Source of the DNA: Diphasiastrum complanatum
Lineage: Eukaryota > Streptophyta > Lycopodiopsida > Lycopodiales > Lycopodiaceae
Length of the DNA stretch: 64,000 nucleotides
Assembly (NCBI GenBank): GCA_029204225.1
Contig: CM055092.1
Span: 78,155,527 to 78,219,526 of the forward strand
Reading direction: 5' to 3'
Each line of letters starts with the position of its first letter. Position 1 is the stretch's first letter. Both the position numbers and the translations under genes were made by a program. This document shows positions 12,493 through 64,000 of this stretch, one piece after another. The notes beneath the pieces were generated by a model that saw only the letters and a program-made list of their open reading frames with translations, was not told where the DNA came from and did no database searches.

Positions 12493-12602
12493 GTTTAAGC
12501 GAATGTTCAAGTATCTATATAATGAATCTAATCCATTTTAGGGTTTAATGTTTGAGTATATTTAACTAAGCTTATGTTTAATTTGGTTTATGAACTATGC
12601 AG
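12493..12602 (+). other. Intron in the TNP2-type transposase
   Basis: GT at 12493 and AG at 12602. Removing it joins HG to LTTSGYNACYICG across a split glycine codon and restores the conserved order of the family. The 110-bp length is ordinary for a plant. Confidence 0.65.
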
Positions 12603-18761: not shown

Positions 18762-19519
18762 CTGCCCATATGGATCCTATTTTCAGATCTTGCCTTCAGG
18801 TAGGTGAGCAAGTTGATCAGAGATTATAAGTGAAGATGGGTTTCCAAAGAGAGGAGGAGTTACTGTTGTTTTTGCCAGGCTTGCTTTCCATCTTCCTGCT
18901 TTGAAGGATGTCTCTGTACTCTACCTGCACAAAGGTGCAGAGCTAAATTCTTAGCAGTTGTTGCTGTGACATGCAATGATTTTACAGGTACTAGTTATTA
19001 CTGTGGCATAAAACGATTTTATAGGTAGTAGTTGATAATGTGGCGTGGACTGATTTTACTGCAGGGTCTGTTTGAAGTCATTACCTCAGAGATCTAGCAG
19101 TGATCTATTTGTTACCAAGTTAGGCTTGCAAAACTGATTTACAAATGTGACTGCATGTTTGTGATGGCTGCCTGTACTTTTTGCATGTTAACAGTAATGA
19201 AAAGTAGAAGCCAGATTCATTCTTTTCTGTATGATCTGGCTTCTGCTCTCATTTGAAAAACAAACGCTCTTTCCCTCTTCTACACAAGCAGCATTCCCAT
19301 GCATGCTTATTATATCCAAGCCTTGATTTCTGGCGCTGTGTCTTGTTGCAATTAGATGGCTGGTAAAACACTCTGTTTTCCGTGCCATATGCAGTTTCCT
19401 GCACTGGGTAAGAACATAATTTATGCAGTTTTTGCTATCTCTGTGCAGGCTTGACAAGAATTGTTGTGGCAAGTGGTTGACCTTGAGGTTGCCTGTCTCA
19501 TATACTCAAACCCGTCACA
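18761..19519 (+). promoter_or_regulatory. 5' flank / possible leader with intron of AMT2-like gene
   Basis: A candidate 5' UTR intron has a strong donor CAG|GTAGGT near 18799 and an acceptor with pyrimidine tract, CTCTGTGCAG, ending at 19448. The exon before the donor would contain a short upstream ATG frame. This is inference from splice-like motifs only; no other coding evidence is present. Confidence 0.3.
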
Positions 19520-27692: not shown

Positions 27693-30600
27693 ATGGCATC
27701 TATAAATGCATATCTTTTGGATACTAATGAAAGGCTCAACAAAACTAACTATTCCATATGGAAAGTTAGAATGGAATCTATCATGATCATGCAAGATCTG
27801 ATGGAAATTGTAAATGGTAAGGAGGGTGAACCTATTCATCCTCAAGAAAAAGCCAAATACATCAAGAGGTGCAATGTTGCACTACATTGCATAAAAATGA
27901 ATGTTGCAAATGAACTCTTAAGAGAGGTAGGAGATTGCACTTCAGCTCAAGATGCTGGGGAGACTTTGCAAAAGGTCTATGAATCCAAGAACCAAACTAG
28001 AATGTTAGCTTTGAAAAATCAAATCTATAGAAGCTATCAAAAGAAAGGAGAGAGTGCACATACTTTTGTCCTAAGAGTAAAGGAATTGAACAAAGAGCTA
28101 GCCTTTATAGGTGACCCTATCAAGGATGAAGAGCTTGTTCAACTCATATTGAATGGACTAAGCTTTGAATTTGACAATTTGGTTCAGGGATATGCAATTA
28201 TGGGTAAGCTACCCATACTTGAAGAACTCCAAGGCACGCTCATGGCCGAGGAATCAAGAAGGAGCCAAATGCAAGAGAGGATGGATAGGCTTTCCATCCA
28301 AGGTGGAGATGACCAAGCTCTCTTCACCAAAGGCAAAGGCAACTCCAAAGGCAAAGGATCAACATTCAAGAAGTCTACAAAGCTTGAGGATCAAGAAGGA
28401 CCCCCAAAGGCATCTCCATCAACCACCAAAGTCAAGAAGGACAAATCAAAGGTGAAGTGCTACTATTGTAGCAAGATGGGGCATTATGCCTCGGAATGCT
28501 TCAAGAGGAAGCAAGATCAAAGCCAAGCCAACATGAGCAAAGAGGAGGAGGAGGAGAGTTCACATGAGGACTCTCTCATGATGTCCATATTTTCTTCAAC
28601 AAGCTTCAAAGGAGAAGGTCCTTGGCGGATTGACTCGAGTGCTAGTTCACACATGACTAGTAAAAGGGAGTTTTTCTCTTCTCTCTTATCTTATGATGGA
28701 CCTATAAAGTCTATCTATACAGCAAATGATGAAGCTTGTAAGATTGAAGGAGTTGGTAGCATTCCCCTTTGCTTAGGATCTTCCAGAAAGATCAACATAG
28801 AAGGTGTTTTGTACATTCCTACAATAACAAAGAATCCACTAAGTGTTGGCCAAATGGTAGACAATGGTTTCAATGTTGACTTTGCTTCAAATGAATGTTT
28901 CATCAAGAAGAAGGGTAAGATAGTGGCTAAGGGCACTAGACTTGGCAAACTTTATAAGCTGGATGCATTTGTGGATACTAATGTTGTCATGTTGGCCGAG
29001 AAGAGCAAGATATCTACCTTTACTTTATGGCACAAAAGACTTGGACATGTCAACTCGGGTTCCATGGAGGCTATGATCAAGGAGGAGTATGCTTTAGGCC
29101 TACCAAGGTCTATTGGGAAGGAAGACAAGGTTTGTGAAGCTTGTGCCTTATCCAAGGCACATAAGAAGGTGTTTCCTAACTCCATCACAAAGTCATCTCA
29201 TCCTCTTGAACTCATACACTCGGATGTGCACATTGCTAGCACCAAATCTAATGGAGGTTCATCCATGTTTTTAACCTTCATTGATGACTACTCAAGATAT
29301 TGTTGGGTGTTCTTACTTTCCTTCAAGTCTCAAGTATTTGATACTTTTGTAAAGTTCAAGTTGTTTGTGGGAAAGCATCATAATCATAGCATCAAGATTC
29401 TTAGAAGTGACAATGGTGGAGAATTCATCTCCAATGAGTTCAAGGCCTTTTGTGAGGAGGAAGGGATCAAGAAAGAGACTTCTTGTCCTTACACTCCTCA
29501 ACAAAATGGAGTTGCTGAAAGAAGGAATAGAACATTATGTGAATGTTCTAAGGCTTTAAGATTAGATGCTTGTTTGCCCAAATCCTTTTGGGGTGAGTCT
29601 CTTGTATGCGCAAACTACTTGATGAATAGGGTGTCTTGCAAAGCAATTGAAGGCAAGACTCCTTATGAGATGTTGTATGGAAAGAAACCCAATCTTAATC
29701 ACTTGAAAGTTTTTGGGTGTATATGTTATGTGCATGTGCCATTAGAAACAAGAACCAAGGAGGATCCATCTTCCCCAAGAGGGATCATGCTTGGATATGC
29801 AAGCTCAAGCAAGGGCTACAAAGTCTATCTTCCATCCTTGAACAAATTTGTTGTTTCAAGGGATGTCATCTTTGATGAACATCATATGCATATGCTTGAA
29901 GAAGGCTCAAGTGCTCCAACAATCAAGAAGAAGATGGCCGAGGAGCAAGATCTTGGTTTTGAGGAGGAGCTCATGGAGGAGCAAGCACCAAACCCACCTA
30001 TCACACCAAGGAGATCTTCAAGGGCAAAAGTGGAGCCATCAAGGCTCACATATCAAGGCAAAGGACAGCAAGTTGAGGGTATCTCATCCACTTCTTATGC
30101 TTTATCTAGTTTTGAAGAACCGTCTAATGTTGAAGATGCATTGAACTCCAAAGAATGGTATAAAGCTATGTTGGATGAGTATGATGCCTTGATTGAGAAT
30201 GAAACTTGGTTGCTTGTTGAGAGACCTCAAAGGAATGTAATAGGATGCAAGTGGGTCTTCAAGCTTAAGTTGAATGCAAATGGGAGTGTTAACAAACATA
30301 AAGCAAGATTAGTTGCAAAAGGTTATGCTCAAGAGAGAGGGATAGACTATGAGGAAACTTTTGCACCCATGGCCAAGATGGTCACAATAAGACTAATCAT
30401 TGCACTTGCATCACATTTTGGATGGATTCTATGTCAAATGGATGTCTCTAATGCTTTCTTGAATGGTTTTTTGGAAGAGGATATCTATATGGAGCAGCCA
30501 CAAGGGTTCATCAAGCATGGAATGGAGAACAAAGTATGCCATCTCCAAAGAAGCATCTATGGCTTGAAGCAAGCCTCAAGATCTTGGAATTCAAGACTAC

Positions 30601-31634
30601 ATTGCTATCTTATTTCACTTTCTTTTGTTCAAAGTGAATATGATCCCACTCTTTATATTAAGTTTGATGATGTTGGTATTGTACTTTTACTCATTTATGT
30701 AGATGACATCATCATTAGTGGAAATAGTGTTGATGGTATTGAAAAAATCAAGATAGATCTATCCTTAGAGTTCAAGATGGTAGATCTAGGGTGTCTTCAC
30801 TTCATCTTAGGCATAGAAGTATTTAGAGGGTCTGATTTTATCTTTATAAGTCAAGTAAACTATGCTCAAAGTCTTTTGAAGAAGTTTAAGATGGAAGTAT
30901 GCAAAAGTGTTGACACACCAATGGAGCAAGATGTAAAAGTGCCAAATGAAGATGATGAAAGATCCTTCATGGACATCACTTTGTTTAGGCAACTTATAGG
31001 TTCCTTAATGTGGATCACTATAACTAGACCAGATCTTAGCTTTAGTGTATGTAGGTTGAGCCAATCCATGCAAAAGCCATTGAATATCCATTGGAAAAAG
31101 ACTAAGAGGATTCTAAGATACATCTCGGGTACATTGGATTTTGGGATTCTATATAGAGGAGATGTGATTAACCTTCAAGCATTTAGTGATTCAAATTTTG
31201 CAGGGGACAAGAGGGATAGGAAATCAAAAAGTGCCTATTCAATTTTCATAGGAGAAGGTGTGGTTTCATGGCTTTCAAAAAAGCAAGAAACTATATCTCT
31301 ATCTTCAACCGAGGCCGAGTACAAAGCTTTGACAACCACTACAAAGGAGGTACTTTGGATCAAGAGATTATTGGTGGAACTAAAGATCATGGATTCAGAG
31401 GAGGCACCAATCATCTACAATGACAATATATCAGCCCAACACCTTGCATCTAACCCAATCTTCCATGCAAGATCTAAGCACATTGAGATATGCCATCACT
31501 TTGTGAGAGAAATGGTGCAAGCCAAGGAGATTGCTTTGGAGCATCTACTTACTAAACCACTTCAAAAGACACCTTTTATGAAGTTCAGATCATCACTTGG
31601 AGTGATTAGTAAAGCAATGATTGAACCAAGCTAG
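27693..31634 (+). CDS. Copia Gag-Pol polyprotein, 1313 aa, single frame
   Basis: UBN2-type Gag covers residues ~1-210, with the zinc knuckle C256-C259-H264-C269. The protease motif WRIDSSASSHMT has D314-S315-S316, so the glycine of DSG is serine (AGT at 28638). The integrase zinc site is H447, H452, C481, C484 and its catalytic triad D511, D573, E609 with 35 residues between the last two. Reverse transcriptase starts near residue 850 and has YVDD at 1002-1005. RNase H carries D1166, E1207 and D1244. ATG 27693 is the first in frame. Residue 89 is Gly where relatives have Trp (GGG for TGG). No stop or frameshift occurs. The product would copy element RNA in particles and integrate the cDNA, but the protease change may block maturation. 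Confidence 0.95.
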   Translation: MASINAYLLDTNERLNKTNYSIWKVRMESIMIMQDLMEIVNGKEGEPIHPQEKAKYIKRCNVALHCIKMNVANELLREVGDCTSAQDAGETLQKVYESKNQTRMLALKNQIYRSYQKKGESAHTFVLRVKELNKELAFIGDPIKDEELVQLILNGLSFEFDNLVQGYAIMGKLPILEELQGTLMAEESRRSQMQERMDRLSIQGGDDQALFTKGKGNSKGKGSTFKKSTKLEDQEGPPKASPSTTKVKKDKSKVKCYYCSKMGHYASECFKRKQDQSQANMSKEEEEESSHEDSLMMSIFSSTSFKGEGPWRIDSSASSHMTSKREFFSSLLSYDGPIKSIYTANDEACKIEGVGSIPLCLGSSRKINIEGVLYIPTITKNPLSVGQMVDNGFNVDFASNECFIKKKGKIVAKGTRLGKLYKLDAFVDTNVVMLAEKSKISTFTLWHKRLGHVNSGSMEAMIKEEYALGLPRSIGKEDKVCEACALSKAHKKVFPNSITKSSHPLELIHSDVHIASTKSNGGSSMFLTFIDDYSRYCWVFLLSFKSQVFDTFVKFKLFVGKHHNHSIKILRSDNGGEFISNEFKAFCEEEGIKKETSCPYTPQQNGVAERRNRTLCECSKALRLDACLPKSFWGESLVCANYLMNRVSCKAIEGKTPYEMLYGKKPNLNHLKVFGCICYVHVPLETRTKEDPSSPRGIMLGYASSSKGYKVYLPSLNKFVVSRDVIFDEHHMHMLEEGSSAPTIKKKMAEEQDLGFEEELMEEQAPNPPITPRRSSRAKVEPSRLTYQGKGQQVEGISSTSYALSSFEEPSNVEDALNSKEWYKAMLDEYDALIENETWLLVERPQRNVIGCKWVFKLKLNANGSVNKHKARLVAKGYAQERGIDYEETFAPMAKMVTIRLIIALASHFGWILCQMDVSNAFLNGFLEEDIYMEQPQGFIKHGMENKVCHLQRSIYGLKQASRSWNSRLHCYLISLSFVQSEYDPTLYIKFDDVGIVLLLIYVDDIIISGNSVDGIEKIKIDLSLEFKMVDLGCLHFILGIEVFRGSDFIFISQVNYAQSLLKKFKMEVCKSVDTPMEQDVKVPNEDDERSFMDITLFRQLIGSLMWITITRPDLSFSVCRLSQSMQKPLNIHWKKTKRILRYISGTLDFGILYRGDVINLQAFSDSNFAGDKRDRKSKSAYSIFIGEGVVSWLSKKQETISLSSTEAEYKALTTTTKEVLWIKRLLVELKIMDSEEAPIIYNDNISAQHLASNPIFHARSKHIEICHHFVREMVQAKEIALEHLLTKPLQKTPFMKFRSSLGVISKAMIEPS

Positions 31635-38299: not shown

Positions 38300-39480
38300 C
38301 TCTTTACGAATGTTACTTCCCAGCAGATCTCAAAAAATCATGGAAAACGTGCATATGAGTCAAACTCACATGCTCACCAAACTGCAAGAGTTACTTCCCA
38401 AGGAAACTCAAAAAATCTTGAAAAAGTGTATTTTTTTGGGTCTTTTTTGTAAAATTTTAAGATTTTATGGGAACAAACCCTTGCAGACTAGTATGCACTT
38501 GTATCGGAGTCAGATTCATCTTCTCACCAAGCTGCAAGAGTTAATTCCCAAGGAAACTCAAAAAGTCTTGAAAAACGTGCATTTTTTGGGGGGTCTTTTT
38601 GCAAAATTTTAAGATTTTCGAGGAATGAACCCTTGCAGACTGGTACGCACTTGTATCTGAGTCAGATTTATCTGCTCAGCAAGTTGCGAGAGTTACTTCC
38701 CAAGAAAACTCAAAAAATCTTGAAAAAAGTGTATTGTTTTTAGGCTTTTTTTTGGAAAATTTTAAAATTTTCTAGGAATGAACCCTCGTAGACTAGTATG
38801 CACTTGTATTTGAGTCAGATTAATTTGCTCACCAAGCTACAAGATTTACTTCCCAAGGAGAAAAAATCTTGAAAAAAATGTATTTTTTTGGGGTTTTTTA
38901 ACCAAATTTTGAGATTTTCTGGAAACTAATCTTCGCAGACTGGTATGTACTTGCATCTGAGTCAGATCTACCTGCTTGCCAAGCTGAGAGAGTTACTTCC
39001 TAGGGAAACTCAAAAATTCATTGTCTGAGAAGGTTCTAGGCCACTTTTTGCTCTTGGGAACCTTCACAAGGGCACTTTTTTTGGGATCTAACTCTCGCAG
39101 ACTTCTCTGTGTCCTTGTCTCAGTGAGATGGAACTTCAGAGAGCTCTGTGAAGGTTACTTCCCAGGGAAACTAAAAAATTCGTTGTCTGAGAAGGTTCTA
39201 GGCCACTTTTTGCTCTTGGGAACCTTCATAGGGGCACTTTTTTTGGAATCTAACTCTCGCAAACTTCTCTGTGTCCTTGTCTCAGTGAGATGGAATTTCA
39301 GAGAGCTCTGCAAAGGTTAGTTTTGAGTTTTGAATTTTTTTTTGATTTTTACAAGGGATTTTTGAATTTTTATGGATTTTTCTCTGTTTTTTCAAAATCT
39401 ATTGGGAAGTAACCTTTGCAGGCTTTCATGTAAGTCTAGGATAGTACCCTGGAGCTGTTGCCAGTCATGAGAAGATCAGT
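38300..39480 (-). repeat. ~150-bp tandem repeat array in a Gypsy leader
   Basis: The block GAGTTACTTCCCAAGGAAAC or a variant recurs at about 38388, 38540, 38692, 38845, 38992 and 39147, roughly every 150 bp, with a partial copy at 38310. Each is followed by CAAAAAATCTTGAAAAA-like sequence and CTTGCAGACT-like sequence. Homologous sequence in reverse orientation fills 63480-64000. In minus orientation both lie downstream of a tRNA-Asp primer site, so the array belongs to the leader of a Gypsy element. Confidence 0.8.
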
Positions 39481-46645: not shown

Positions 46646-47155
46646 ATTGTGTGATTTTGATATGTAGGGAGTCAGTCCACTTATGTGCTTGATTTTGTGT
46701 TTTTTGCATGAATATTAGTTGTTTAACATTTCAAGGTAGTGTTCAAGAAACTTTTTTGAATTATCCTTGTAAGCTTGCATTTGTTGAAGCTTCTTAGTTT
46801 TCTAAGGACTATTACTTATAAAAGGGTTAATTTGCCTATATAATTAATTGTCAAATCTTTTATGATATTGGTTTTTGAGAGATAATGCCAATTCCATTCC
46901 TATACTTTGTTGGCTTTTCCAAACATTATTTCAATGGATTTCACAACCCATTTCGCATGTTTTTGTTGACTATTTTGGTTGTATTTTGTGTAAAAATTAT
47001 ATTTCATTGTCGATGCAAGTTAACAATCTATCAGGTTAATCAAAAGAGCTGCAATACCTTATCAAACAACATTAGCACAACAACTACACAATACAAGAGC
47101 ATTACGCCAGAGTGCCAAGGGATTGGCGGGCAAGTAATAAATCTAGTAAGGGTTG
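46646..47155. other. No feature seen
   Basis: By position this would be the leader of the decayed Gypsy element at 46628. No frame with a domain is seen. Confidence 0.35.
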
Positions 47156-47221
47156 ATCCTGCATGCATTTTAGTTGACATGGGCTTGAGTTATCGCAAAA
47201 AAAAAAAAAAAAATCCTGCAT
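47156..47221 (+). mobile_element. Tiny poly(A) retroposon with 9-bp target duplication
   Basis: ATCCTGCAT at 47156-47164 is repeated at 47213-47221. Between them lie 48 bp ending in a run of about 17 A. This is the expected footprint of a severely 5'-truncated LINE/SINE-type insertion. Confidence 0.45.
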
Positions 47222-47470
47222 CCAAAGTTCGGTTGTGATAAGTAAAGTCATGTACTCATACATGGCTCGACTATGGTACACTTTAATGGCATGGAATTTC
47301 CCAAGTTGTTTGGTGCTTGGACTCTCGGAAAATGGTTACGGGAAATCCATGGGGCTAGTATAGCACGGAGGTGCTCTAGTACCTAGCATTGTGGCCATTG
47401 TCAAGTCTCTCTCCATCTATGTAATGAAAGATAGCTGCTTACATGTAGAATGTATATGTGAATCTAATAC

Positions 47471-48120
47471 GTGTGAAGGATTTCAGATCATTCAAGATCC
47501 AATCCATGTCCCTAATCTTTGGTTACAATAAGGAGCAAACCAACAATCCCGCCAATGTAGAAAAATCAGCATCTACATACAAAATGAGATGCAAACTCTA
47601 AGAGATATTGATCAAACATGAACCAAAAAAAAAAAAAAATGATTGTTGTTCGTACAATTACAGTACCCTACGGTATTTCACACGTATGAAACCAAAATTA
47701 GCAATAAATGATCATTCTACACATAAGATTGCAAGATAACATCATGAGATTGCACCAATGAGTAGTAGAACTCAAAGAGAACCATGTATAATGATGAAAT
47801 GAGAGAGAGAAGAGAGAAGATCCCTTTCTCCACGAGCTACAACAATAAATAGCAGGTCCAAACCCTATTTGGCCACCTGGCTTTCCCTCCAAAATGTAAA
47901 CCCTACTATTTTTGGGTCTAGATTCAATGTACCCAAAGTTCAAATTTGAATCTCTCTCAAACTCGACTACCAGCTTTCCCACACTTTCAAAGGGTGTTTA
48001 TTGAGTGTATTTTAAACTAATACAATTTAAAGAAGTTTATCTCTAAGTGTAAAATGAGTTTTGGCCTCATATTGACAATTTACCAAAATATGACTAAACT
48101 AGACTAAACTTGTTGAAATC
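47471..48120 (-). repeat. Second copy of the 3965-4637 LTR family
   Basis: The reverse complement aligns with 3965-4637 over most of its length, for example the blocks around GTTTGCATCTCATT, GTAGATGCTGATTTTTCTACATTG and TACATGGTTCTCTT. The pyrimidine-rich region after the TATA-like sequence is much shorter here. The primer site beside it is decayed and no coding region of this element is found, so it is a solo or near-solo LTR. Confidence 0.65.
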
Positions 48121-49057
48121 TCTCACAATACGTTCGTTTTGCTCCTTTAATGATCAGTATGGCTTCTGCCTTGATACGGCTTCGTTAAAGGGCAAAACAA
48201 ATTGCTAAGTTATGAAATGAATGATTGGAAAGATTGGACGTACTTGTTACAAATGCAATCTAGCTTATAAAGTAGTGAATCTTGTTTCGGACATGGATAA
48301 CAACTGAGACACCTGTCTTCCTCATGCAACTAACTTGTGCGGTTTTGTTGTGTGGGATGGTGGCATGTAACAACTGGGTGTCCTAAAACTTACTTCGCTT
48401 TATGGTACTCTGTACTGCTAAACTTTATACAGTTGTATTTTTACCTATTATGCTATAAATTGAAGGGTTCAAAGGGTTTGGTCCTGAATTGTCAAGAGCG
48501 ACTATGTGAAATCTTGTTACTCTCTCTCTAGCATCTTTGATGCCACCCCGACTACCCTTTGGTGGGGGTAGTACCAAACCTTTACCTTTACTTGTGTTTT
48601 ATGGCTAACAAGGTTTGTTGTATGGTGTAGTCCACAGGATGGTTTCATGATGCAGTGACTCTTGGCTATGGGGAGCCCCTTCCTCCTCCTAGTCCTTTTG
48701 TTCAAACTATTATATGTTGCATGAAGAAAGTTGTTGAAGTTCACCAATTGATTATTGCTTATGATATGACTACTTGTAATGCTACTGGCTCGGATGATGA
48801 AATTCTTTGTCTTATTGATTGATGTGCATCATGGATTAATTCAAAATTTATACAAATTTCATTAAAAAGAAAGAAACCCTTAGCATGGTTGAAAAAATTT
48901 ATATGGACCTCTCAAATTATGCTGAACGAATTACTGCTGAAGAAAATTCTGTAATATGCATATTCGGAACGTATTTGCTTGCTTGGAAAAAGAAAATGGT
49001 GACTCCTCTGCTGATACCCCTGTCCCTACCAATGCTCCTACTTCACCTCACCCTTTA
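48121..49057 (+). other. Unassigned sequence; left half of an interrupted frame
   Basis: A frame open from about 48630 to 48820 (GEPLPPPSPFVQTIICCMKK, then VEVHQLIIAYDMTTCNATGS) looks protein-like but is unknown. At the right end a frame beginning after a stop near 48930 runs into the Copia insertion and continues at 55355 (see that entry). Confidence 0.35.
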
Positions 49058-50159
49058 TGTTGGAGAGAGGGAGATGAACGAGTCGAGAAAAAGGTTTTGT
49101 ATGTTAGAAACGAAAAATAAGCCAAAGAGGTAAGACAAACAAGACACGAACTCGAACAAGAAATGAACGAGAAACAAACTCAAACAAAAAATGTTCATGT
49201 GCAGTGAACGAGCTATACGACTCTCTCCGTAAGCATGACTATGCCTATCACAACGAACAAAACGGTAGTGATGGGAATCACAGTCGTTCTTGATTACGTA
49301 GCCAAACTTTAATAAATGAATGAAGCTTCAAAAAATGGTTTGTTGCGAATAGTAAGACAAACTATTCGTCGTGAATGATTTGCGAAGAGCTAGATGGTGC
49401 TCGACTGATAATTAGTCGCGAATGATTCGTGAAAGACAAGACTAAATGTTAGTCATCTATTACCATAGAAGAACAACTAAAAAGATCAGACAAAATGAAT
49501 GATAAGCATAGCAATATTAACATAGATCTGAACGCAGAACAAAGAATTGTATCAGATTAAGTATATCATGTACACATGTCAATAATGCGGTAGAGCACAA
49601 GACAATAGCGGACGAAACCGCATTCCCTAAAAAGCTTATACAATCTATAAAGGGATAAAACCTTATTGCTGACAATCAAGAATCGTCTCATTCATCAACT
49701 CATCAACTCATTCCTCATTAACCTCATTACTCATTAACCTGAATACACAAAATGGTATCCAATATATATATATTATATTACAAGTGTGCAGATGTGGAAA
49801 GTACAGAGTGGATGTGTTGTCTGTAAGAGTTGTGGGTGGCTGCAGTCGTTGTCCAATCTGTTAGTGTAGCTGCATGGGGTGAGCGTGAAAAGGGTGCGAT
49901 GTCAATTAGTGTTGAAGTGATCATTGGTGATGACAATGCAAAAAGTGTGTCACTCTTATGAGTAGCCTTAGGATTAGATTTACAGGGTGTCTTTGCTTTT
50001 AGGCACCTTTGGCATTCTGTAAGATAGTGTTCCCTTTTCTTCGTTTGTGCAAATTTGCGTGTAAATATGCAGACTGCTTAACAACGTTAGTAAATATGCA
50101 GCATGAATGGAGGCAGATGAAAATGGGATTTAAGGAGAGTAGAGGGAATAAATCCAACA
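49058..50159 (-). repeat. 3' LTR of the older Copia
   Basis: 1102 bp; pairs with 54255-55354. It contains clustered GAACGAGA/CGAATAG motifs and TATATATATA near 49764. Confidence 0.9.
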
Positions 50160-50461
50160 CTCCCCCTTAATTTGGATCCGTGAATGCCTTGATCTTCAGA
50201 CTGAGCAATGCACAAATTTGTTGTGTGCATTAACACAAAGTGCTTTCGTGAAGATGTTTACAACCATGTCCTATGTTCTGCAGTACGTTAAGCTCACCTC
50301 TCTGTCGAGAACCTTGCCCCTGATGTAGTGATATCTGATCTAAATGTGCTTACTCCTAGAATGAAACATAGGGTTGGCCGATAAGGCAATAGCACTTTGG
50401 TTATCACAAAATAAAATTGTGGGGCTGTACTGATACAGATTGATGTCTGATAGCAAATTTC

Positions 50462-52570
50462 TCAACCAAAACGCTTCCTTAAGAGATTGAGAAGCAGCAA
50501 TGTATTCTGCTTCAGTAGAAGAAAGTGCAATAGAGGTTTGCTTATGATTGTTCCATGAAATAGGACCGTCGGTGAAGAAGAATGTAAATCCAGATGTGGA
50601 CTTACGATTGTCTGCATTTTCTCCCTAGCTTGCATCAGAATAGCCACTGAGCTGATGAAGATTGTCGTTGCTGACATCTCCATAGCAGATGCACTGGTCC
50701 ATGGTAGCTCGAATATACCTCATGACTCGAATAAGAGCCTTCCAATGATCCTAGTATCGATCGATACAGATACTCTCTCATTTGCTCTTCTTCCTGCTTG
50801 GTCTGGGGACATTGGTCCTTTGACAAATGCAGGCCTGGATCCATTGGTGAGTGAGCTAATTTACAATTCATCAAATTGTATCTATTAAGAACATTATGAA
50901 GATACCTTTGTTGAGTGATCTAAATCAGTTGATTTGCTTTGTCTCTGTGGATTTTAATTCCTAAACAGAAGTGAGCTTCGCCTAGATCAGTCATGTCAAA
51001 TTCTGAGAACATCATGTGTTTTGAATCCTTAACCATATTGGTATCGTTGCTGAAGAGCAACGTATCATCCACGTACAAGGTGATGATAATGAAGGATTGC
51101 TGCACTGACTTCGAATAAACGTTGCAATCAGCAGTGCTTGGTTTGAATCCTTGTTCAATGAGGAGTGTGTTGATCCTCTGAACCCAAGCCCTGGCAGACT
51201 GTTTCAAGCCGTACAGTGCTTTGTGGAGTTTACAAACACGATTTTTCATGCCTTCCAGAACGTATCCTTCGGGTTGGATCATGTAGATATCTTCTTGTAT
51301 AACTCCATTCAGATAGGCTGTTTGTACATCAAGTTGATGTACTTCGAGGTCGGCAGTTGCAGCATAAGACGAGCATTCGGATCGACGAATGTTTGACGAC
51401 TGGACTAAAAGTCTCATTGTAGTCGACATTTGGGATCCGGGTGAATCCTCGTGCTACCAGTCTAGCCTTCCTTCGATCAATTGCTCCGTTGGCATTATAT
51501 TTGATCTTAAAGATCCATTTGCAATCAATGATATTGCAGCCAGTAGGAGCTTTGACTAATGACCATGTCTGATTCTTGATCAGAGAGGAATACTCTATGT
51601 CCATGGCTTCTCTCCAGAGATCAGAGTCTGGTTGGCTAAGTGCCTCTTCAGCTGTCGTTGGTTCTTGCATTAAGAGACAGGCAGACTCAGGAGTATACCT
51701 TGTGGGCTGCGTGCGCACTTGGCTTGATCTTCTGGGAAGATTCGACTGATGAACCGCTCCTAGGACTTGTTGCTGGGTAGCAGCAACATCTTCATCTGAT
51801 TCGCTGTCTCAAAGTGGGTCGACAATACATATGCCTGAGCCAGAAGCTCGGTCTGTCGTATCAAGGGTAGGTGATGAAGGTCTTTCTTGAGCAATATCCT
51901 TGTCTTTGAGGTCGACGAACTGATCCTCGATAAAGACTGTATTCCGGCTATACAAGATTTGCTGGGTATCAGGATCGTACAACTTGTAAGTGTTATCAGA
52001 CGAAGTATATCCGATCAGGATGGCCTTGAGACCTTGGAAGTCCAATTTTTTCCTTGTGTCCTTTGGGATCTGCGCATAGGCAATGCATTTAAACACTCTT
52101 AGGTTCTTCAAATAAGGCTTAGAGCCTGTCCACACCTCGTGGGGTGTCTTGTCTGAGAGGGCCTTGATTGAACATTTGATCTAGACATAAGCTACAGTGG
52201 AGACAGCTTCAGCCCAAAATCTCTTGGGAAACAATGCATGCGATAGCATACATTTAGCAGATTCGACCAGAGTATGATTCTTCCTCTCAGCTAAGCCATT
52301 AGACTGAGGACTGTAAAGAGTGATGAATTGCTGCTCAATGCCTTGGCTTTGGCAGTACTCCTTAAACTCGACAAAGATATATTCTCCACCGTTGTCTGAC
52401 CTTAGGGCCTTGATCGTCCTTCCAGTCTCCTTTTCTGCACGCTCCTTGAAGATTTCGAAGCAATTGAAGGCTTCTGATTTCTTCTTTATGAAGTTCACCA
52501 TAGTTCTTCTGGAGAATTCGTCAATAAAGGTTATAAAATACTTGGCGTCTTTCAATGAAGGGTTTTTCAT
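50462..52570 (-). pseudogene. Pol (integrase, RT, RNase H) of the older Copia
   Basis: Minus strand. 52570-52181 is the integrase core with FIDEFSRRTM, LRSDNGGEYIF and PQSNGLAERKNHTL, so the Asp and Glu are intact. After a stop, 52135-51809 is its C-terminal part. 51718-51329 covers the linker and first part of RT (CKWIFKIKYNANGAIDRRKA). A frameshift leads into 51429-50920 with VHQLDVQTAYLNGVIQEDIY and intact YVDD. RNase H is present only as decayed pieces down to 50462. Confidence 0.85.
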
Positions 52571-52967
52571 CGGGCCACAAATATCTGAATGTACAACATC
52601 TAGAATCCTCTAGCAACATGTTGATGGCTTGACTTAAATGGTTTCCTAGTCTGTTTACCAACTAGACAGTCTTGACAGACAGGTAACTTGACCTTTTCAC
52701 GAGGATAGTCGAGATCAAGAACAATAGATTGTCTAGACATTCATTGTACAACAGGATGATTTAAATGACCAAGTCTATAATGCCAAAGTAAACCTTTATT
52801 TGAATGAATTGAAGTACTGAGAGCCTGACTAGAGGCAGAAAAGCAACGACTCAACTTATACAAGTATCAGTGCCTCTTTTCGAGTGCTAGGATCTTGCCT
52901 GTCCTATCAGCTACTTTACACTGAACACATTCGAACTCTACTCTATGTCCTAGATCAGTGATTCTGC

Positions 52968-54098
52968 TTACAGAGAGCAGATTTGTAGATAACTTGGTAC
53001 ATACATGACTTTAGAGAGTAGCTTAGACTGATCATTTGCAATGCATAATCTTACAATGCCTTCACCTTTAATAGCTCGTGTGCTACTGTTGTCAAGGTGA
53101 ACGAATTTTTGAGTACTGTAAGGTGTATAGGACTCAAAACAACCAATGAGACTAGTCATGTGCTGAGTGGCTCTGGAATCCAGGAACCAAGAACTGTCGC
53201 CAGATGCTCCTTGATGATTGGTCATGAAGGCATCATGATCCGCTTCTTGAATAGGCTGTGGAGCTTTTGCAGCTGCATTAGCCACTTGATTCGACTGCCC
53301 TTTGCTATTGTTCTTCGCTTGAAGTATTCGACAGTCTTGTATTTTGTGGTTGTTTCATTTGTAGTATCTGTAGAACAGCTTCTTCTTTGTCTACAGATTC
53401 GATTGTTCCTTGTGCTGAGTTAGTTTTTGGTCTGGCTTTGATTCCTTCAGGCATTTCTTCTTCTTCTGCGTTGTCGTGCTCTCGTTGGTGTACAAGGCAT
53501 GAGAATTAGCTGAGGAACTCGAGGCTTTGTTCCTTCGCATGTCTTCCTGCAATAGCATAGTAATGACTCTCGAAAGAGTCAATTCTGAATGAGTCGTGAT
53601 GATCATCACCCAACTGTCATAAGAACTTGGCAAGCTTGTAAGCAGTTGCATCACTGCGTCTTGATCGTCTATGACAGATCCGACAACGGCCATTTGTCTT
53701 AGCAGGTTCTTGAATTGATTAATGTGATTTTGTAGAGAATCACCATTCGTCATCTTGAGGGAGTAGAATTTTTTCTTGAGATGTAGCTTGGAAGCTATAT
53801 CTCGCACTTCGTATAGTGTGCTCAAGATGTCCCAGACTTTTTTTGATGTCTGAGCCTCAGATACATGGCCGATCTGGGTATCCGTGATGCCGAGGATGAT
53901 CAGCGCGAAAGCTTTTCCATCCTTCAGCTTCCATCTGGCGATTGTCACGTCGTCCACTTCGGGTTTCCCTTCTGCACCTGTAAAAACGTCGTACAATTCT
54001 TTTGCCATTAGTACAGTTTTCATCTTAAATTTTCACAAATGGTAATTGGCTCCATCAAGCTTGTCCATGATAGGATTGGCTTTCCTTTGGGAATCCAT
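52968..54098 (-). pseudogene. Gag and protease of the older Copia
   Basis: Minus strand. ATG at 54098 opens with MDKLDGANYHL, but the following Trp codon is TGA; the frame resumes KFKMKTVLMAKELYDVFTG. The Gag body follows to about 53395. In the zinc knuckle both leading Cys codons read TAC (YRYYK then a stop, then NNHKIQDC), near 53345-53390. The protease reads WFLDSRATQHMT, with Arg in place of the DSG glycine. All these lesions are G-to-A on the coding strand. Confidence 0.85.
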
Positions 54099-54242
54099 GT
54101 GGAAGAGATAGTTTGGTGATAGGAAAAACTATCAGTGACTTAAGTATGAAAATCTGATACTGAAAAATACAAAACAAGAAAACAATTACTCTATCGGCTA
54201 GTAGAGTCTTGTACTGTGGAAGCTTATCAAGCTATGAAAATA

Positions 54243-54254
54243 GCTCTGATACCT
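54243..54254 (-). other. Primer binding site of the older Copia
   Basis: AGGTATCAGAGC on the minus strand, one mismatch at the first base, adjacent to the LTR end at 54255. Confidence 0.85.
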
Positions 54255-55354
54255 TGTTGGAGAGAGGGAGATGAACGAGTTGAGAAAAAAGTGTCATATG
54301 TTAGAAACGAAAAATAAGCTCAAAGAGGGAAGACGAACACGAACGAGACACGAACTCGAACAAGAAACGAACTCGAACATAAAATGTTCGTGCGCAGCGG
54401 AACGAGCTATACGCCTATCTCCGTAAGCATGACTACGCCTATTAGAACGAACAAAACGGTAGTGATGGGAATCACAGTACTTTAATAAATGATTGAAGCT
54501 CCAAAAAATGGTTTGTCACGAATAGTAAGACAAACTATTCGTCGCGAATGATTTGCGAAGTGCTAGATGGTGCTCGACTGATAATTAGTCACGAATGATT
54601 TGCGAAAGACAAGACTAAATGTTAGTCGTCTATTACCAGAAAGAACAACTAGAAAGATCAGACAAAATGAATGATAAGCATAGCAATATTAACATAGATT
54701 TGAACGAAGAACAAAAAACTATATCAGATTAAGTATATCATGTATACATGTCAATAATGTGGTAGAGCACAAGACAATAGTGGACAAAACCGCGTGCCCT
54801 ACGAAGATTATACAATCTGTAAAGGAATAAAACCTTATTGCTGACAATCAAGAATCAATGTGCAAGGCATCTACTTCGTCTCATTCATCAACTCATCAAC
54901 TCATTCACTCATTAACCTCATTACTCATTAACCTGAATATGCAAATGGTATCCAGTATATATAAATTATATTACAAGTGTGCAGATGTGGAAAGTACAGA
55001 GTGGATGTGTTGTCTGTAAGAGATCGTGGGTGGCTGCAGTCGTTGTCCAATCTGTTAGCGCAGCTGCATGGGGTGAGCATGGAAAGGGTGCGACGTTAGC
55101 CAGTGCTGAAGTGATCGTTGGTGATGACAATGCAAAAAGTGCGTCACTCTTACGAGTAGTCTTAGGATTAGATTTACAAGGTGCCTTTGCTTTTAGGTCA
55201 CCTTTGGCATTTTGTAATATAGTGTCCCCTTTTCTTCGTCTGTGCGAATTTGCGTGTAAATATGCAGACTGCGCGACAACGTTAGTAAATATGCAGCATG
55301 AATGGAGGCAGATTAAAATGGGATTTAAGGAGAGTAGAGAGAATAAATCCAACA
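54255..55354 (-). repeat. 5' LTR of the older Copia
   Basis: 1100 bp; relative to the 3' copy it lacks about 20 bp near 54475 and carries an extra ~21 bp near 54860. Confidence 0.9.
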
Positions 55355-56340
55355 CTTTGATCTTTACCAAAGACCTTGATGAAGATAGTGCTTCCCAGTT
55401 AGAGTCCTTCTCACAGAAAATTTGTGATGTAGGAAATCAATCTGCCTTTGAATTTTGTCAAGACAATAGTTTCCAAGTACCGTTGGTTGTACCATTGGAT
55501 TTAAATCTGCAAAGACTGATTATAAACTTTGGAGCCTTCCTTCTGTCAACTTCCTAGCACCTATCTCTATTCAGCTTTGGATGGCTCTTGCTCATCTCAC
55601 TGATGTAGAAGTCCAAGCCTGCAAGCTTGCTGCTTTGCATAACTATTTCTTTTAATACTCATATTGCCTTTGATACTGTCATCAAGATGATCAGATTTGA
55701 ACCTTCAAGATGTTCTTCTGAGCAGGACTTGGACTAGAACTAGAGGCCATTTTGACACTGGCTTTAACAGAATGAACCTTCATCAAGATAGAATCTGAAA
55801 CTGGAAAAGACCTTTCTTTAAGTGTAGATGCGGTGATAAATGCATAAACAATTATTCTATTATATGGTTTGATCACTCTATCTGATACATAATGAATAAT
55901 CTTTCCATTTTCTTTCCTGGTGCGTCTCTACAAAATCAGCTTAATGCCTTCTTCCTTTGGTTTCACAAACCTGCTAGAGAGGTTGTCAAGTCCCACCTTG
56001 TCTTTCTGTACATCCGACAATACATGATTGATGCTACCATTGAAAATTTCATAAACACTACTGCTAAGCTCCTCGCACACCTTGGCGACGTTGGAAACAT
56101 TCGAAAAATTGAACGTCTTTTAAAAAACCTAGCTTCTCCACCTTGCAAGACAAATACTTCCATAATACTAGCAAGAAAATGGGATCCTTCAATCTAAACA
56201 ATCCAAGCTCAATTATATCAGGCAGCGGCAATAACAGGAAGAGAAAGTACTTTTTGAACAAAGACAAAGAAGGGCAAAGTAGTGGCAGTAAGGGGGATCT
56301 TCCTATCAGAAAGCTGAACTTTTACCGTGATTGATCCATG
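55355..56340 (+). other. Right half of the interrupted frame; unknown protein-like sequence
   Basis: A frame from the Copia boundary to 55557 (FTKDLDEDSASQLESFSQKI) continues, once the insertion and one target duplication are removed, the frame ending at 49057 (GDSSADTPVPTNAPTSPHP). Further open stretches follow: 55892-56197 (FFLWFHKPAREVVKSHLVFL) and 56143-56334, ending basic (NRKRKYFLNKDKEG). No family is recognised. It could be a host gene or part of an older retroelement. Confidence 0.35.
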
Positions 56341-56399
56341 TGCAGGAACACATAGAAAAAACAAGGATTTTGGAGGTCAATAATACTAGTAGACGATGA

Positions 56400-56680
56400 C
56401 TAGTGTGTCAAACGACTATATGCTGAAATCTTACTTCAGATTTTTGGTCATATTGATGAGACTTTTGAGCTTATTGTGTTTGGTTGTCTTACTTTCCACA
56501 TTTGAAGCATGACTGGTATAAACCCTTTCAAGTCTTTTGTGATTTCGATGTTGACAATATCCCACCTTGTACTTGCACTGACAATAAACGTTTTAAAGAG
56601 TTCATTTCCAAAAATTTTGGGCATGTTGTCTTGATGGATACTATCAACTCTGGTACATATGAGGAGCCTCTATGACATGA
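56400..56680 (+). pseudogene. Possible N-terminal fragment of the unusual RT lineage
   Basis: A frame 56484-56675 reads HLKHDWYKPFQVFCDF, then PPCTCTDNKRFKEFISKNFG and HVVLMDT, ending SGTYEEPL. A Cys-x-Cys followed by GHV and a G(T/P)KYREP-like end recalls the region upstream of the polymerase in a group of Penelope-like/rvt-like reverse transcriptases. That is recognition from memory, not alignment. It lies on the strand opposite to the RT core at 60111-61745. Confidence 0.3.
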
Positions 56681-56689
56681 GCAAGAAGG

Positions 56690-58560
56690 ACATAGTCACA
56701 GGTCTGAAAATATCCAGACCCGATACTGAGTTCTACGAAGCTTGTCAGAAAGGGAAATAGCATCGGAATCCATTCCTGCATGAGTGAAGAAGAGCTAAAG
56801 AAATTCTTGAGCTCGTCCACTCAGATGTCTATGGACCAATGAAAGTTGATTTGCTCTCAAGATCGAGGTATTTCTTTACATTCATTGATGACTACAACCG
56901 AATGACAATGATCAATTACTTGAAGAAAAAATCTAAAGTATTTGACTCTTTCAAGAAGTTTGTGGCATTCGCAGAAAGACACACCTCGAATAAAATTCAG
57001 ATCATTAGGTCTGATAATGGAGGTGAATATAAGAGCACAGAATTTTCAAGATTCTGTCAAGAACAAGGAATAAAGCATCAATTCACTCTTGTGTATAGAC
57101 CCAAATATAATGGTGTCGTGGAAAGAAAAAACATGACACTATTCAAAGGAGCCAGATGCATGATGGCACAGGCTCGATTGCCAAGTCAATTTTGGACTGA
57201 GGCAATAGCTGTAGTGGAACACCTGCAAAACAGATCAACGACGACAGCCCTGGAAGACAAAACACCATACGAAATGTGGACAGGTAGAAAGCCTGATCTA
57301 TCATGTGTGCATGTATTCGAATGTGCAACATACAAGCACATACCAAAGGAACAAAGAAGCAAGCTCGATGAAAAGTTGGATCAAACAATCATGGTTGGAT
57401 ACTCGAATGGACCACAAGTCTATAGACTCTACAACCCAACCACAAAGAAAGTTGTGTCGTGTAGAGATGTGAAGTTCGACGAGTCCACATTCCTTGGATT
57501 GAAGGACAAAAAGGGGTATGAGATCTTCACAATACTGCCGATTCAAGAGAGAGATCAAGGGCAAACACCAAATCAAAATATTGAGCCCCATATCCCAGAG
57601 CAGTAGGAAGCCAAAGATGAACTCGACAAAGAAGAAACATTCGAACAACAACGAATCGAACCCAGAAGGTCGACAAGACAAAGAGACCTCCAGAATGATA
57701 CACTGACAACCTTCAATGGAGCGAAAAAATAGAGTTCAAATACTACAGCTTCACTGAAGAGCCAACAACATATCAAGAAGCTATCCAGAGTCTAGAAGGT
57801 GAATTTTGGAAACAGACAATGTCAGAAGAAATCGAATCAATGAGGCAAAATGAGGCATGGACACTAGAGCCACTGCCCGAAAATAAAAAGATCGTCGACT
57901 GCAAATGGGTCTACAAAAGAAAAATAAAGTCAGATGGCATTGTCGGGCGATACAAAGCAAGGCTTGTCACGAAAGGCTACACACAAAGGTACGGCGTCGA
58001 TTACTTTGATACTATTCACCAATGGTAAAAATGACAAGCATTCGACTACTCCTTGCATACGCAACTCAACCACGGAGATCTAGAAGAAGAAATCTTCTTG
58101 AAGCAGCCTGAAGGATTCGAAGACCCCAACAATCGACAATATGTTTGTCGGTTGCAACGATGCATTTATGGTCTGAAACAAGCATCACGATCTTGGCATA
58201 AGAAGATCAATGGTCTTCTGAAGTCTCTAGATTACATTCCTATACAACCAGACTGTAATGTCTATATAAAAAAGTAGAAATTTTTTTTGTGATTTTGACT
58301 ATATTTGTAGATGACCCCCTAATGATAGGAAATTCTTTGATGCTAATCAAGGAAACGAAGATATAGGAGAAACAACAAAATGCCTTGGGCTGGAAATCAG
58401 AAGAGATCAAATTAGAAGAGAAATGCATATGAACTAGTCAAAGTATGCCCAGAAAGTGTTGAAGCAGTACCAAATGATGGACTGCAAAGAAAAAGCCACA
58501 TTGGTGAAGCCATCTCTTGTGAACTATCCATCTTTAGCTTCTTAAGGGAATCACCCACGT
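56690..58560 (+). pseudogene. Copia integrase-RT pseudogene
   Basis: Plus strand. It begins in the region before integrase (FYEACQKGK), has HSDVYGPMKVDLLSRSRYF and FIDDYNRMTM, IIRSDNGGEYKST, and NGVVERKNMTL in a frame 56839-57606. The linker follows (RRSTRQRDLQND), then the RT start at 57740-58028 (CKWVYKRKIKSDG), a break losing part of RT, and 58053-58277 (EEEIFLKQPEGFEDPNNRQY, YGLKQASRSWHKKI). A stop and decay follow; the YVDD position near 58305 reads only partly (TIFVDD). It ends near 58560. No RNase H or LTR is seen. Confidence 0.8.
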
Positions 58561-59503
58561 GCTAAAGCATTGAAACAAAAAGTATTGGATTAAGTATAGA
58601 GTACTCTTAAAGCCTCATAGAGTCATCACCAATAGTTAATTACTTGCTTTTTTGAAGATTAATAACATAGCTTTTTACTCCTCCTGAGCCTTCTCCACCA
58701 TATACAGATTATTAGCAATAGTAGCCATGTTTTCTCAAGAGCATAATAGAATTCTAGCATAATTTATACTACTTCCTTTTCCATAATCACAGCCATCATC
58801 ATACTAGTTTATGAGAGGCAGATAGCATCATAGTTTTTATCAAACCAAAAGAGCAATCGTATGGAGCAATACCACGGAAAGGTTACAACCAATCGAGTAT
58901 AGCAAGAGCATTCACATCAACCATATTCATGCTATAGCTTCTAGTATATCCATAAAACACATGGAAGGACAACGGTCCATCGCATTTCTCAAAGCATTAC
59001 GTTCTGAAAAATGCTTGACACTTTGCTCACACAAAGAGCCATGGTAAATCGTAGTAAGTACAAGCGATTCTGAGCCAAAAATCAGCGTTGGCAAATCCGC
59101 CTCAGAGAGGGCAATAGCCAATGACTACTCTCTTTTCAGGATTGTCCATAATGATTATCAAAAGTTGGCTTGCTGCCAACGCCTATCATAGATCAAAAAG
59201 GTTAAAAAAATACCTGAAAAATTGTCCACGTTTGTTCCTTGGGACAGGATTGATTGCAGTAGTATCCAATCACAATATGCAAGCCAGACCTTGCTACTAC
59301 ACAAGGTAATCACAGAAACCTGTGAGCATTCATGATTCACCATAAAGCTTAGCATACACCCTTCATTATCATGAGCTATCATTCATTAAATCAGTCTCAC
59401 CTTTGTTTGCAGTATCGTTCACACGATTGCTCTTCCAATAGCATTCACGAGCTTTCTCTTCAATCACAATCATAGTATGGTAGAGTACCAGAAGAGCAAA
59501 AAT

Positions 59504-59509
<6 letters not shown>
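58561..59509. other. No recognisable gene
   Basis: AT-rich sequence without supported features. On the minus strand a TATA-like TTCTATAAAGAGGG near 59625-59640 precedes the (CT)n tract at 59510-59590, as in the LTRs elsewhere in the window, so the right end may be LTR-derived. Confidence 0.35.

Positions 59510-59590
<81 letters not shown>
59510..59590 (+). repeat. (GA)n microsatellite, ~81 bp
   Basis: Uninterrupted AG/GA repeat; frames through it are artefacts. Confidence 0.95.
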
Positions 59591-60067
<477 letters not shown>

Positions 60068-60110
60068 CCACCAACCATACTCACAACTAGCAAAGTTTTT
60101 CAGGGGGCAG

Positions 60111-61745
60111 TTAGCACCCCTGAGATGGAGTGCTAACTACCCACCAAATTTTTTTAGCATTTATTGGTAAAGTAAACTTGAGTCTTGGGAAGAAATTGTG
60201 TAGGAATAGGTTGTTTATAGTCTTATATAATCTTCCTTTCATGAAGCCATTACGTTGAAAAGCAATAACGATGTTTTTGACCTCATCCATAAATGTGTCA
60301 TGTTTGCTACAACAATACATGGCAGCAATAATTTGAGCGACAATAACTTTATACGAGTTCATCATCAGCTTGTTGGTAGTCAAGTGTATATATTGGAAAA
60401 ACGAAAACGGAAGTTCCCTTCGCTTGTCAAATTTTTTCATATGAAACCTACCCGATAAAGAATCAAAGGTAGTAGTAATATTCAAAAAATTGATCATATT
60501 ATCAAAAGCATCGTCATTTCTATGGTGAGGTACTCCAAGGGATAGATCCATAAGGCATTATCATCGACACGAGGTTGCTCTTTGTCCAAAAATAAAAGAC
60601 CATCTGTGTTGTTTATGAAACAAATATCATCAATATAGAGGAAGGTATGCTTAAAGGCATGTAGGTATTCCACCTTACCAAGTTTGGCGAGTCTTTTCAT
60701 GAAATATAATTAATAGAATGACAGATACCAATTGCACCATGTAGGAGAACAGGCAAAATCCATTGGAATACCACAAACTTGTTTCCAAGTCCTGTTTTCT
60801 AATCTTACTATGCAGCTGTCAATAAGTATATCATTCCATTGGCAAAGAAGTTTTTCGTCAATCACAGTCCAATTGTCAGTTTGATTGTTTACCCATTCCA
60901 ATCAAATTGCTTAAGGCTCAGTTTCCATTGATAGGCCAGCTTTTTATTTTTACAAGACTTGAAGGCATATCCGATCATTTTCCATACTACTATTTTTAGC
61001 TCATCAGGACCATTAAGAGGATATTCTCATAGCATTTTGCGATGTCAGTAGACCACATTGAAGTGATTTTGTCTGGCACATTAAGATAGAATTTAGTAGA
61101 TGAATTGCACTACCAGAAAAGGTTGGTATCCACATTTAGGACACTCTGGTATGAAGTTGCCTTAAGGCTTGCCCTCTCCATAAGGAGAGGAGTCAGTATA
61201 CCAAGAGCTCCAGAAATGAACGTGTCCACCTTAGAAACATAACAATTATGTGTGTTTGTAATCCATCTGAACGCAATTTTATGTGCTTTGAAAGAACAAA
61301 GTAAAAAAGGTAATTCTTCTTTCCCTATTAGAAAATCAAATATTTTAGTAGCAAGCGTATCTTGAATCTTAACCATAGCCATGTCTAGAATATTGTTATT
61401 TTCTTTCGAAAACGAGGCAAAATCTGAACTAGACAATCTAACCAAAGCCAAGTTTCTTACGAAGTAGATGCACATAAAACATGGGTTGTGTTCACCCTTA
61501 TCCATGCCATTCACATACAAATTGGTAGTAATCCAATCACGCTCGTCAATGGCATCTTTAAGTTTGTTATTCATTATACTTTTCCCATGCAGCCATTTGG
61601 TTTTTTTCAAAAAGTTTGTCACAGCATCTTTACAAATCAGGGCATGTTACATAACAGTCTCATGATCAATATTTTGATAAGTAGGTAAAATTCTTGCCAA
61701 TTCAAACCATTCGGTAAAGTTCTAAAGCAACCTCATTTATATTAG
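60111..61745 (-). pseudogene. Non-LTR reverse transcriptase, Penelope-like or rvt-like
   Basis: Minus strand, several frames. It opens near 61740 with ELARILPTYQNIDHETV and, after a stop, CKDAVTNFLKKTKWLHGKSI. A template-contact-like motif follows (FKAHKIAFRWITNTHNCYVS, near 61240-61290). RT motif A is STDIAKCYENIPLNGPDELK (near 61020-61080, shifted frame), motif B CGIPMDFACSPTWCNWYLSF (near 60715-60785), and motif C FLYIDDICFIN with two catalytic Asp (near 60605-60640). A thumb-like region ends the protein (FHMKKFDKRRELPF, then VIVAQIIAAMYCCSKHDTFM and NGFMKGRLYKTINNLF). It matches neither Copia nor Gypsy. No GIY-YIG or other endonuclease is visible. At least four stops or shifts break it. 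Confidence 0.65.
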
Positions 61746-62335
61746 ACTATCAGAGTTGCTGATTATCTTGGCTTGGTAGAGATTGCCTTCTCTGCATCCA
61801 ACTATCAACAACTTGTTTGTTGTTTTCTCGATCATCCGACATACATTGCCATCGAATAGAACTCGAATTCCAAGATCTGTCATCTTGGAGACTGACAATA
61901 GGTCTATGTAGAATGTTCCTGGCAGCTCTGCTTGTCCTGATAGTGTTCATAGTTATAGAGTTCCGACGCCCTTGACATCGTGTCGGCTCCCATCGCCTAG
62001 AATCACTGCTTTGTTGTTTTCAAGTTCTCTGAAGTCAATCAAGATTCTTTTGTTGTAGGTGATGTGTGAGGTTGCTCCTGAATCAATGACTACATCGCAG
62101 TCCTATTCAGTGTAGCTTGTCGAGGCTTCGTCGAATACCGTGAAGGTCTCATCGCTTTTATTTGTAGCCCTCGACAACTCTGCAACATTCACCTTGTCAG
62201 CTTTGTTTTTTCTTTTTGGGTTGAATCTGCAATCGTATGCAGTGTCCCTTCTTCTTGCAGTGCATGCAAGGTATTGTCGGGTTAAACCAGCATTTGTTGG
62301 CTGCGTGTCCGGAATTGTGGCTGTCGGGGGTATTC
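61746..62335 (-). pseudogene. Copia zinc knuckle, protease and pre-integrase fragment
   Basis: Minus strand. The end of Gag has GHAANKCWFNPTIPCMHCKK and a knuckle CMHCKKKGH whose last Cys is in a shifted frame (YDCRFNPK). The protease follows with VVIDSGATSHIT (DSG intact, near 62065-62085), GDGSRHDVKGVGT, then a stop and FYIDLLSVSKMTDLGIRVLF. It ends abruptly at about 61746, where the non-LTR RT begins, and on the other side at the Gypsy LTR. It is a third Copia lineage in the window. Confidence 0.75.
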
Positions 62336-62349
62336 CCAACGAATTGTAA

Positions 62350-62887
62350 ATAAATAAAATCGACCAATAAAATGTGTTGCGAAGGCATGGCATCCTGCGC
62401 ATATAAGTCCATGGCCCAATGAGCACACAAGCTTAAGTGTAAATAGAATAAAGTAGACTTGGGCCTTTGAACTAAAATAAAACTAGAGGCCCAAAGTCAT
62501 TTTTAAACTTAGAGATTACTTTTTAGAGTTGGGTCCGAATTGGGACTCACATGAATCTTGTGAATTTCAATGTACTTTTTGTGGACCCTTGGATCAAGTT
62601 GGGTCCAAGATGAATGGATAGGATCAATGTAAATATTAGCCAATAGGATTTTGGGGCAAGGGCCTTCCCCATTTTATAAAAAGGCACCATTCGTACACTA
62701 TTTCAATGCTTAATAGAGAGGAGGAGACTCTATCATTTTGAGAGCTCAAGCATCCTCATTTGCTAATTACTCTTGCTTATGCTATTGTTGTGATTGCTTG
62801 TTATTTCCATTTCCCATGCTTTTTGGTTTATGCTAGTTAAGTTTTTTCCATAAGCAATGAAATTAAGCATTTGAGCTAACCTCCATC

Positions 62888-63224: not shown

Positions 63225-64000
63225 TAGGTTTCCACTAACTAGTGTAGCTGCATTTTAGCTATTTTCTTGCTTTTTAGAGTAGTTTTAGGTAGATTTTTGG
63301 GAGTTTAGAGTTAGTTTTTTGTATTTTTTTTTTGTGTTTGGACTGTTCATAGCTAGCAGAGGAGGTGTGAGAGGTAGAGGAGGCCCTGAACAGCCTCTAA
63401 GGGCTTGAAACCCAAACCAACCAGGCAAAAAATCCAAAAAAACACACCAATCTGCATCTTGGAGGAAAAAAGAGCTTAAAATCTCATCAGATTTTTATAT
63501 CTCCGAAACCAGTGTGAATTAACCCTTGCATGACTGGCAGCAGCTCCAGGGTACTGTCCCAAACCTACATAGAAGCTTGCGAGAGTTAGTTCCAAGCAGA
63601 TTGCAAAAATCAAAGAAAAATCATAAAAAATTCAAAAAACCCTTGAAAAAACCAGGACACAGAGAAGCTTCAGAGAGTTAGTTTGATGTCTGTGTGCCTA
63701 TGCGAGAGTTCCCAATAAAAAAAATACGGTAAAGTACCAGAGAACCCTCGCAGATACCAAAATTTTCAGTTCTAATGGGCAAGAACTCTCGTAGAAGATT
63801 CTGAAGTTCCATCTCAATGAGACAAGGACACAGAAAAGCCTGCGAGAGTTAGTATTATTCCAGTGAACAGAAAATTGGGTTTAAGTGCTAAAAAATCACT
63901 AAAAAGTGAAGATCCAGCAAATCTTTCCAGTAAGAACTCTCACAGATCTTCTCAACCAATTCAGAATGATAATTTACATCAATGATGAAGCCTTGCGAGA
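63225..64000 (+). repeat. Gypsy leader with repeats homologous to 38300-39480
   Basis: No coding frame. From about 63480 the sequence is the reverse complement counterpart of the array at 38300-39480, sharing for example GAAGTTCCATCTCA(A/C)TGAGACAAGGACACAG, CTCCAGGGTACTGTC and GCGAGAGTTAGT. The element continues beyond the window. Confidence 0.75.

Follow-up and report, generated by a model that had tools for sequence, protein, structure and literature searches.

A dead, rearranged copy of a probable endonuclease-deficient Penelope-like element in Diphasiastrum complanatum, from an abundant family bordered by CT tracts

We characterize here a decayed reverse transcriptase (RT) on the minus strand (61748-60114) of a 64-kb stretch of Diphasiastrum complanatum DNA, referred to as the window, together with the repeated element that contains it. 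Motifs A, B and C of the RT are in order and spread over several frames; since the motifs lie in different frames with stops in between, the window copy is a pseudogene. The parts of the element and the motifs of its RT were located as follows.

47132..48528, plus strand: final part of the left direct repeat (R), with matching pieces at 47132-47475 and 48127-48515 and unmatched sequence between them
48530..49056, plus strand: start of the coding module (I)
49058..55354, minus strand: Copia-like insertion splitting module I, with ends TGTTGG...CCAACA and a near 5-base duplication CTTTA/CTTTG (by eye)
55356..56642, plus strand: module I continued, upstream coding region, in pieces 55356-56405 and 56406-56642
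58503..59883, minus strand: right direct repeat R, initial ~1.3 kb, which begins with CATGGGCTCTG
59884..60065, minus strand: (CT)n tract lying between the hairpin and the right repeat
60105..60142, minus strand: conserved hairpin 3′ of the RT, with two 16-nt arms and a 6-nt loop
60114..61748, minus strand: portion of module I that codes for the RT, comprising an N-terminal block, motifs 2 to C and the thumb, with multiple frame changes and stops
61289-61278, minus strand: KAHK
61049-61023, minus strand: motif A, TDIAKCYEN
60772-60761, minus strand: GIPM of GIPM(DFACSP)
60637-60626, minus strand: YIDD
60434-60420, minus strand: KFDKR
60251-60243, minus strand: NGF

When 60101-61750 was shuffled with dinucleotide composition preserved, an ordered A-B-C trio appeared in 0 of 1000 shuffles and an open stretch of at least 178 amino acids in 1 of 1000. 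Together with the order of motif A, GIPM, YIDD, KFDKR and NGF, this upholds the original prediction of an RT pseudogene, and its further statements that the RT is not of Copia type, has a Penelope-like motif order and shows no visible GIY-YIG in the 60111-61745 region are also supported. The CxxC that it had remarked in NPCFMC falls within a conserved block in an alignment of six sequences, where H57, N58, C60, M62 and C63 are invariant. The extent given, 60111..61745, holds for the RT part but not for the limits of the element, which continues through the right repeat to 58503 and in further parts on the plus strand; the 5′ edge of the RT copy, at 61748, is where homology with other copies ends. 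Copia-like remnants were noted by eye at 61737-62496 (minus strand); the three pieces submitted to Pfam matched 0 families.

The window copy matched 0 families in Pfam and NCBIfam and no relevant chain in the PDB. Two AlphaFold single-sequence models were of unusable quality (pLDDT 43.1 and 32.5). Profile recognition, which failed for this copy, succeeded with less decayed ones: RVT_1 was found in four of six (best E=7.5e-5, judged against the curated cut-off), and the PADLOC RT model also matched four of six (1.6e-6). Copy L028, which has an open stretch of 509 amino acids, gave RVT_1 at E=2.7e-4 and 21.1 bits, below the curated cut-off of 29.6. The other PDB sequence searches, and likewise NCBIfam, returned nothing relevant.

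Other copies and their termini, sought in the same genome as the original prediction had suggested, revealed a large family whose sampled ends lie mostly at (CT)n. Across 1,744,706,496 bases in 5176 contigs, the window RT region had at least 45 matches at the DNA level (40 scored of 2129 candidates), and the open stretch of L028 had at least 92 at the protein level with 59-100% identity (84 scored of 6824 candidates), 80 of these 92 containing at least one stop. One copy, L013, is not independent because it is a 98-99% identical duplicate of the window region. This abundance in both searches, along with long direct repeats, rules against a single-copy, non-mobile rvt gene, which had been offered as an alternative. 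Relative to L028, dN/dS was 0.12-0.21 in six divergent copies (dS >1, between subfamilies) and 0.26-0.69 in four closer copies, values that fit a long-lived enzyme that was under selection in the past and whose present copies are decaying. No relatives outside the host genome were found in the viral contigs, prokaryote genomes and phages searched, and four pattern matches in viral contigs (L001-L004) were dismissed as chance.

The architecture of the element was derived from 20 copies with flanks, compared with one another and with themselves. Several copies have the layout R-I-R, a direct repeat of ~2.2 kb on either side of a coding module of ~3.5 kb, with the RT inside module I and, upstream of it, a long coding region that matches no known family. 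The two R of one element differ by about 5-17% (five copies measured), and R lacks TG...CA termini. Nine fetched copies, two duplicate pairs among them, have GTTACTCTCTCTCTAGCATC or a slight variant of it at the junction from R to I, and this junction also occurs in the window on the plus strand near 48515-48535. On sequence comparison, the window evidently contains much of one dead element, with the left R and pieces of module I on the plus strand and the RT, hairpin, (CT)n tract and right R inverted. A truncated RT merely abutting a Copia element was rejected, since the comparison shows a nested insertion and an inversion.

The hairpin is found in 27 of the 29 sequences scanned, and (CT)6 or longer follows within 75 nt in 26 of the 27, L017 being the exception; four of the 27 (L013, L015, L020 and L023) are near-duplicates. 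The 121-nt region that holds it has a folding z of -5.14. The hairpin hardly varies among copies whose protein identity to L028 is 59-88%, and covariation was seen in only 1 of 21 pairs, a scarce signal because the sequence is too invariant. An Rfam scan of the window gave 0 families at cut-off, and no hammerhead was found in laxer Rfam scans.

The outer ends of the element also lie at CT tracts. R starts with CATGG immediately after (CT)n in L014, L019, L024, L028, L029 and L032 (with a few C between in L028), and six further probes yielded three R starts, all three preceded by (CT)n (L070 by alignment), the other three probes being without R; thus all nine R starts seen are at (CT)n. BLAST among the 5′ flanks of seven R starts, including the six named, found no shared similarity. 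At the 3′ side, (CT)n closes each of the first seven ends, five of which are independent. A second sample comprised 20 R ends out of 40 scored, from 3040 candidates; three were R-to-I junctions (L056, L061, L066) and 17 were ends, partly dependent on one another (L050 and L052 have a common flank; L047, L053 and L055 seem related by eye). Sixteen of these 17 carry (CT)4 or more in tracts of 9-135 bp, 11 with at least 16 bp and five with only 9-13 bp, and L047 has a degenerate tract only. As background, 25 tracts of (CT)4 or longer occur in the window on both strands together, starting at ~0.0002 per base per strand. No CT tract was found at the 5′ break of truncated copies (the window copy, L018, L020-L023, L025, L026 and L030). 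In L049 and L051 the CT tract runs into an apparent R start of another subfamily (by eye; compare L033), as would result if an element had inserted at the CT tract of a second one. In three pairs (L068/L059, L070/L058 and L072/L065), about 2.2 kb separates an R start from an R end, both of them at (CT)n and with differing flanks, which suggests R units without module I.

When the 107 RT places from the DNA and protein searches combined were compared with 150 scored GIY-YIG matches of 471 candidates, none of these places had a match within 18.9 kb. A profile search of nine coding pieces likewise found no GIY-YIG, no APE- or RLE-type endonuclease, and no integrase, protease or RVT_2. Of 70 RT places on contigs of known length, one lies less than 1 Mb from a contig end, roughly as chance would predict, and neither the window (one mismatch allowed) nor the 20 flanked copies contain paired TTTAGGG; telomere association, which is typical of Athena and was not treated as defining, is thus not seen in the family. 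GIY-YIG domains are themselves very numerous in the genome (at least 150 scored places). Five such loci were fetched, none of them beside an RT by eye, and two (L044 and L045) adjoin, again by eye, PIF1-like helicase ORFs, which suggests that loci of this type are Helitron-like elements with a GIY-YIG domain.

Taken together, the element is likely a dead, rearranged copy of an abundant, dispersed, endonuclease-deficient Penelope-like element (PLE), judging by motif order and by motifs characteristic of this group. Motif 2 (HK..R), a motif A ending in NIPL and the KFDKR/NGF thumb are features that we take to be PLE-like, and the motif order, the spacing from motif 2 to motif A and the thumb presumably fit the Penelope/telomerase kind. 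Motifs A, B and C and the thumb of an RT domain are all present, as are direct repeats like the pLTRs of PLEs; the GIY-YIG of canonical PLEs was not found. An hhalign profile comparison detected no similarity to the first exon of the host TERT, and the Copia control likewise gave none. We regard it as unlikely that this is a canonical Penelope-type element with pLTRs for direct repeats, its GIY-YIG lost from the sampled copies or supplied in trans; the LTR-like repeats do resemble Penelope pLTRs (PMC3846280), and a genome this rich in GIY-YIG could furnish the enzyme, but none of the 107 RT places has a scored GIY-YIG match within 18.9 kb, and of the five fetched GIY-YIG loci two adjoin helicase-like ORFs and none an RT, by eye. 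A divergent LINE in which a (CT)n tail replaces poly-A would explain copies broken at the 5′ side with simple-repeat 3′ tails, yet we hold it highly improbable in view of the long direct repeats, the lack of a LINE endonuclease profile in the nine coding pieces, and a motif A and thumb that are, we assume, not LINE-like. The R-I-R layout, together with R units that resemble solo LTRs in having (CT)n at either end, is what would be expected of an LTR retrotransposon whose RT is aberrant and in which R is a true LTR that includes the CT tracts. Nevertheless, no profile of an integrase, a protease or an LTR-type RT was found in the nine pieces, R has no TG...CA ends and no target duplication was seen by eye; this reading is likewise highly improbable.

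If the element is an endonuclease-deficient PLE, then it is of a kind already reported from plants, and the original suggestion of something undescribed overstated the case as to kind: PMC9033089 lists endonuclease-less PLEs for Selaginella moellendorffii, Pinus taeda and Picea abies. The present family shares with these the plant host and an RT without GIY-YIG. PMC12477314 places PLEs of Selaginella among telomere-associated elements, in contrast to the single RT place in 70 near a contig end here. According to PMC3846280, endonuclease-deficient PLEs use exposed ends of chromosomes for priming, and the protist and fungal ones among them do not have the Penelope repeat organization; the direct repeats of the present family are in this respect a point against the assignment. 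Within the literature surveyed (including PMC10473749, PMC9370799 and PMC11167929), whose coverage of key PLE work is partial, no plant endonuclease-deficient PLE with CT-bounded direct repeats was encountered. On the best reading, what differs here is that the elements are dispersed, have LTR-like repeats and are associated with CT microsatellites rather than telomeres.

Several other systems bear comparison. The Athena elements and Terminons of bdelloid rotifers also have no nuclease, and their units are chained through a simple repeat that is telomeric there and would be CT here; they differ from the present family in host, and in that it has LTR-like repeats and no TTTAGGG pairs. The Penelope/Poseidon elements, including Dryad of conifers, share direct repeats flanking the coding part but carry GIY-YIG, which was not found here. 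Chlamys and Naiad PLEs insert at dinucleotide repeats in green algae, a likeness to the present family, and encode an N-terminal GIY-YIG, a difference from it.

Most of the sampled copies have CTCTCT tracts at both their start and their end, which hints at simple repeats as landing sites. Since the element is without a nuclease, its RT might rely on free 3′ ends of DNA located at (GA)n/(CT)n microsatellites, where the (CU)n of the element RNA would pair with the microsatellite end and prime cDNA synthesis, the hairpin being a likely recognition signal. The other end would join through the same repeat, which would leave (CT)n on both sides. We tentatively propose, at somewhat less than an even chance, that CT/GA microsatellites serve this nuclease-free retroelement as interstitial pseudo-telomeres, that the (CU)n ends of its RNA prime on (GA)n DNA ends so that copies insert into long CT tracts, become chained through them and distribute them across the genome, and that R also moves alone. 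Concerning the targeting step only, it is close to evenly probable that the CT tracts are element-made tails or post-insertion expansions and that the RT inserts at any break. The tails of 9-13 bp at five of the 17 ends (five of the 16 CT-tailed ones) may be encoded by the element itself, and the 5′ breaks of truncated copies without CT point the same way; on the other side, (CT)n precedes every R start seen, in flanks that are unrelated among the seven compared. Endonuclease-less PLEs are known chiefly as telomere dwellers. Against that background, priming at microsatellites would, if true, show another primer source for a nuclease-free RT in a dispersed, CT-bounded family, and such a family, high in copy number and long-lived, might help explain the many CT tracts of the genome.

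The window contains further features outside the element. The clearest ordinary gene seen is an ammonium transporter in two exon-like pieces at 19487-20263 and 21127-21705 (plus strand; Pfam PF00909). A Copia-like polyprotein frame of 1313 amino acids at 27693-31634 (plus strand) is stop-free and possibly a young copy, and a tnp2 transposase domain (PF02992, E=5.8e-44) at 11961-12548 (plus strand) is the remnant of a CACTA-type DNA transposon. Finally, tandem units of 152-162 bp and short repeats with GCGAGAGTTAG occur at 38371-39319 and 63567-63854, and the two places are similar by eye.
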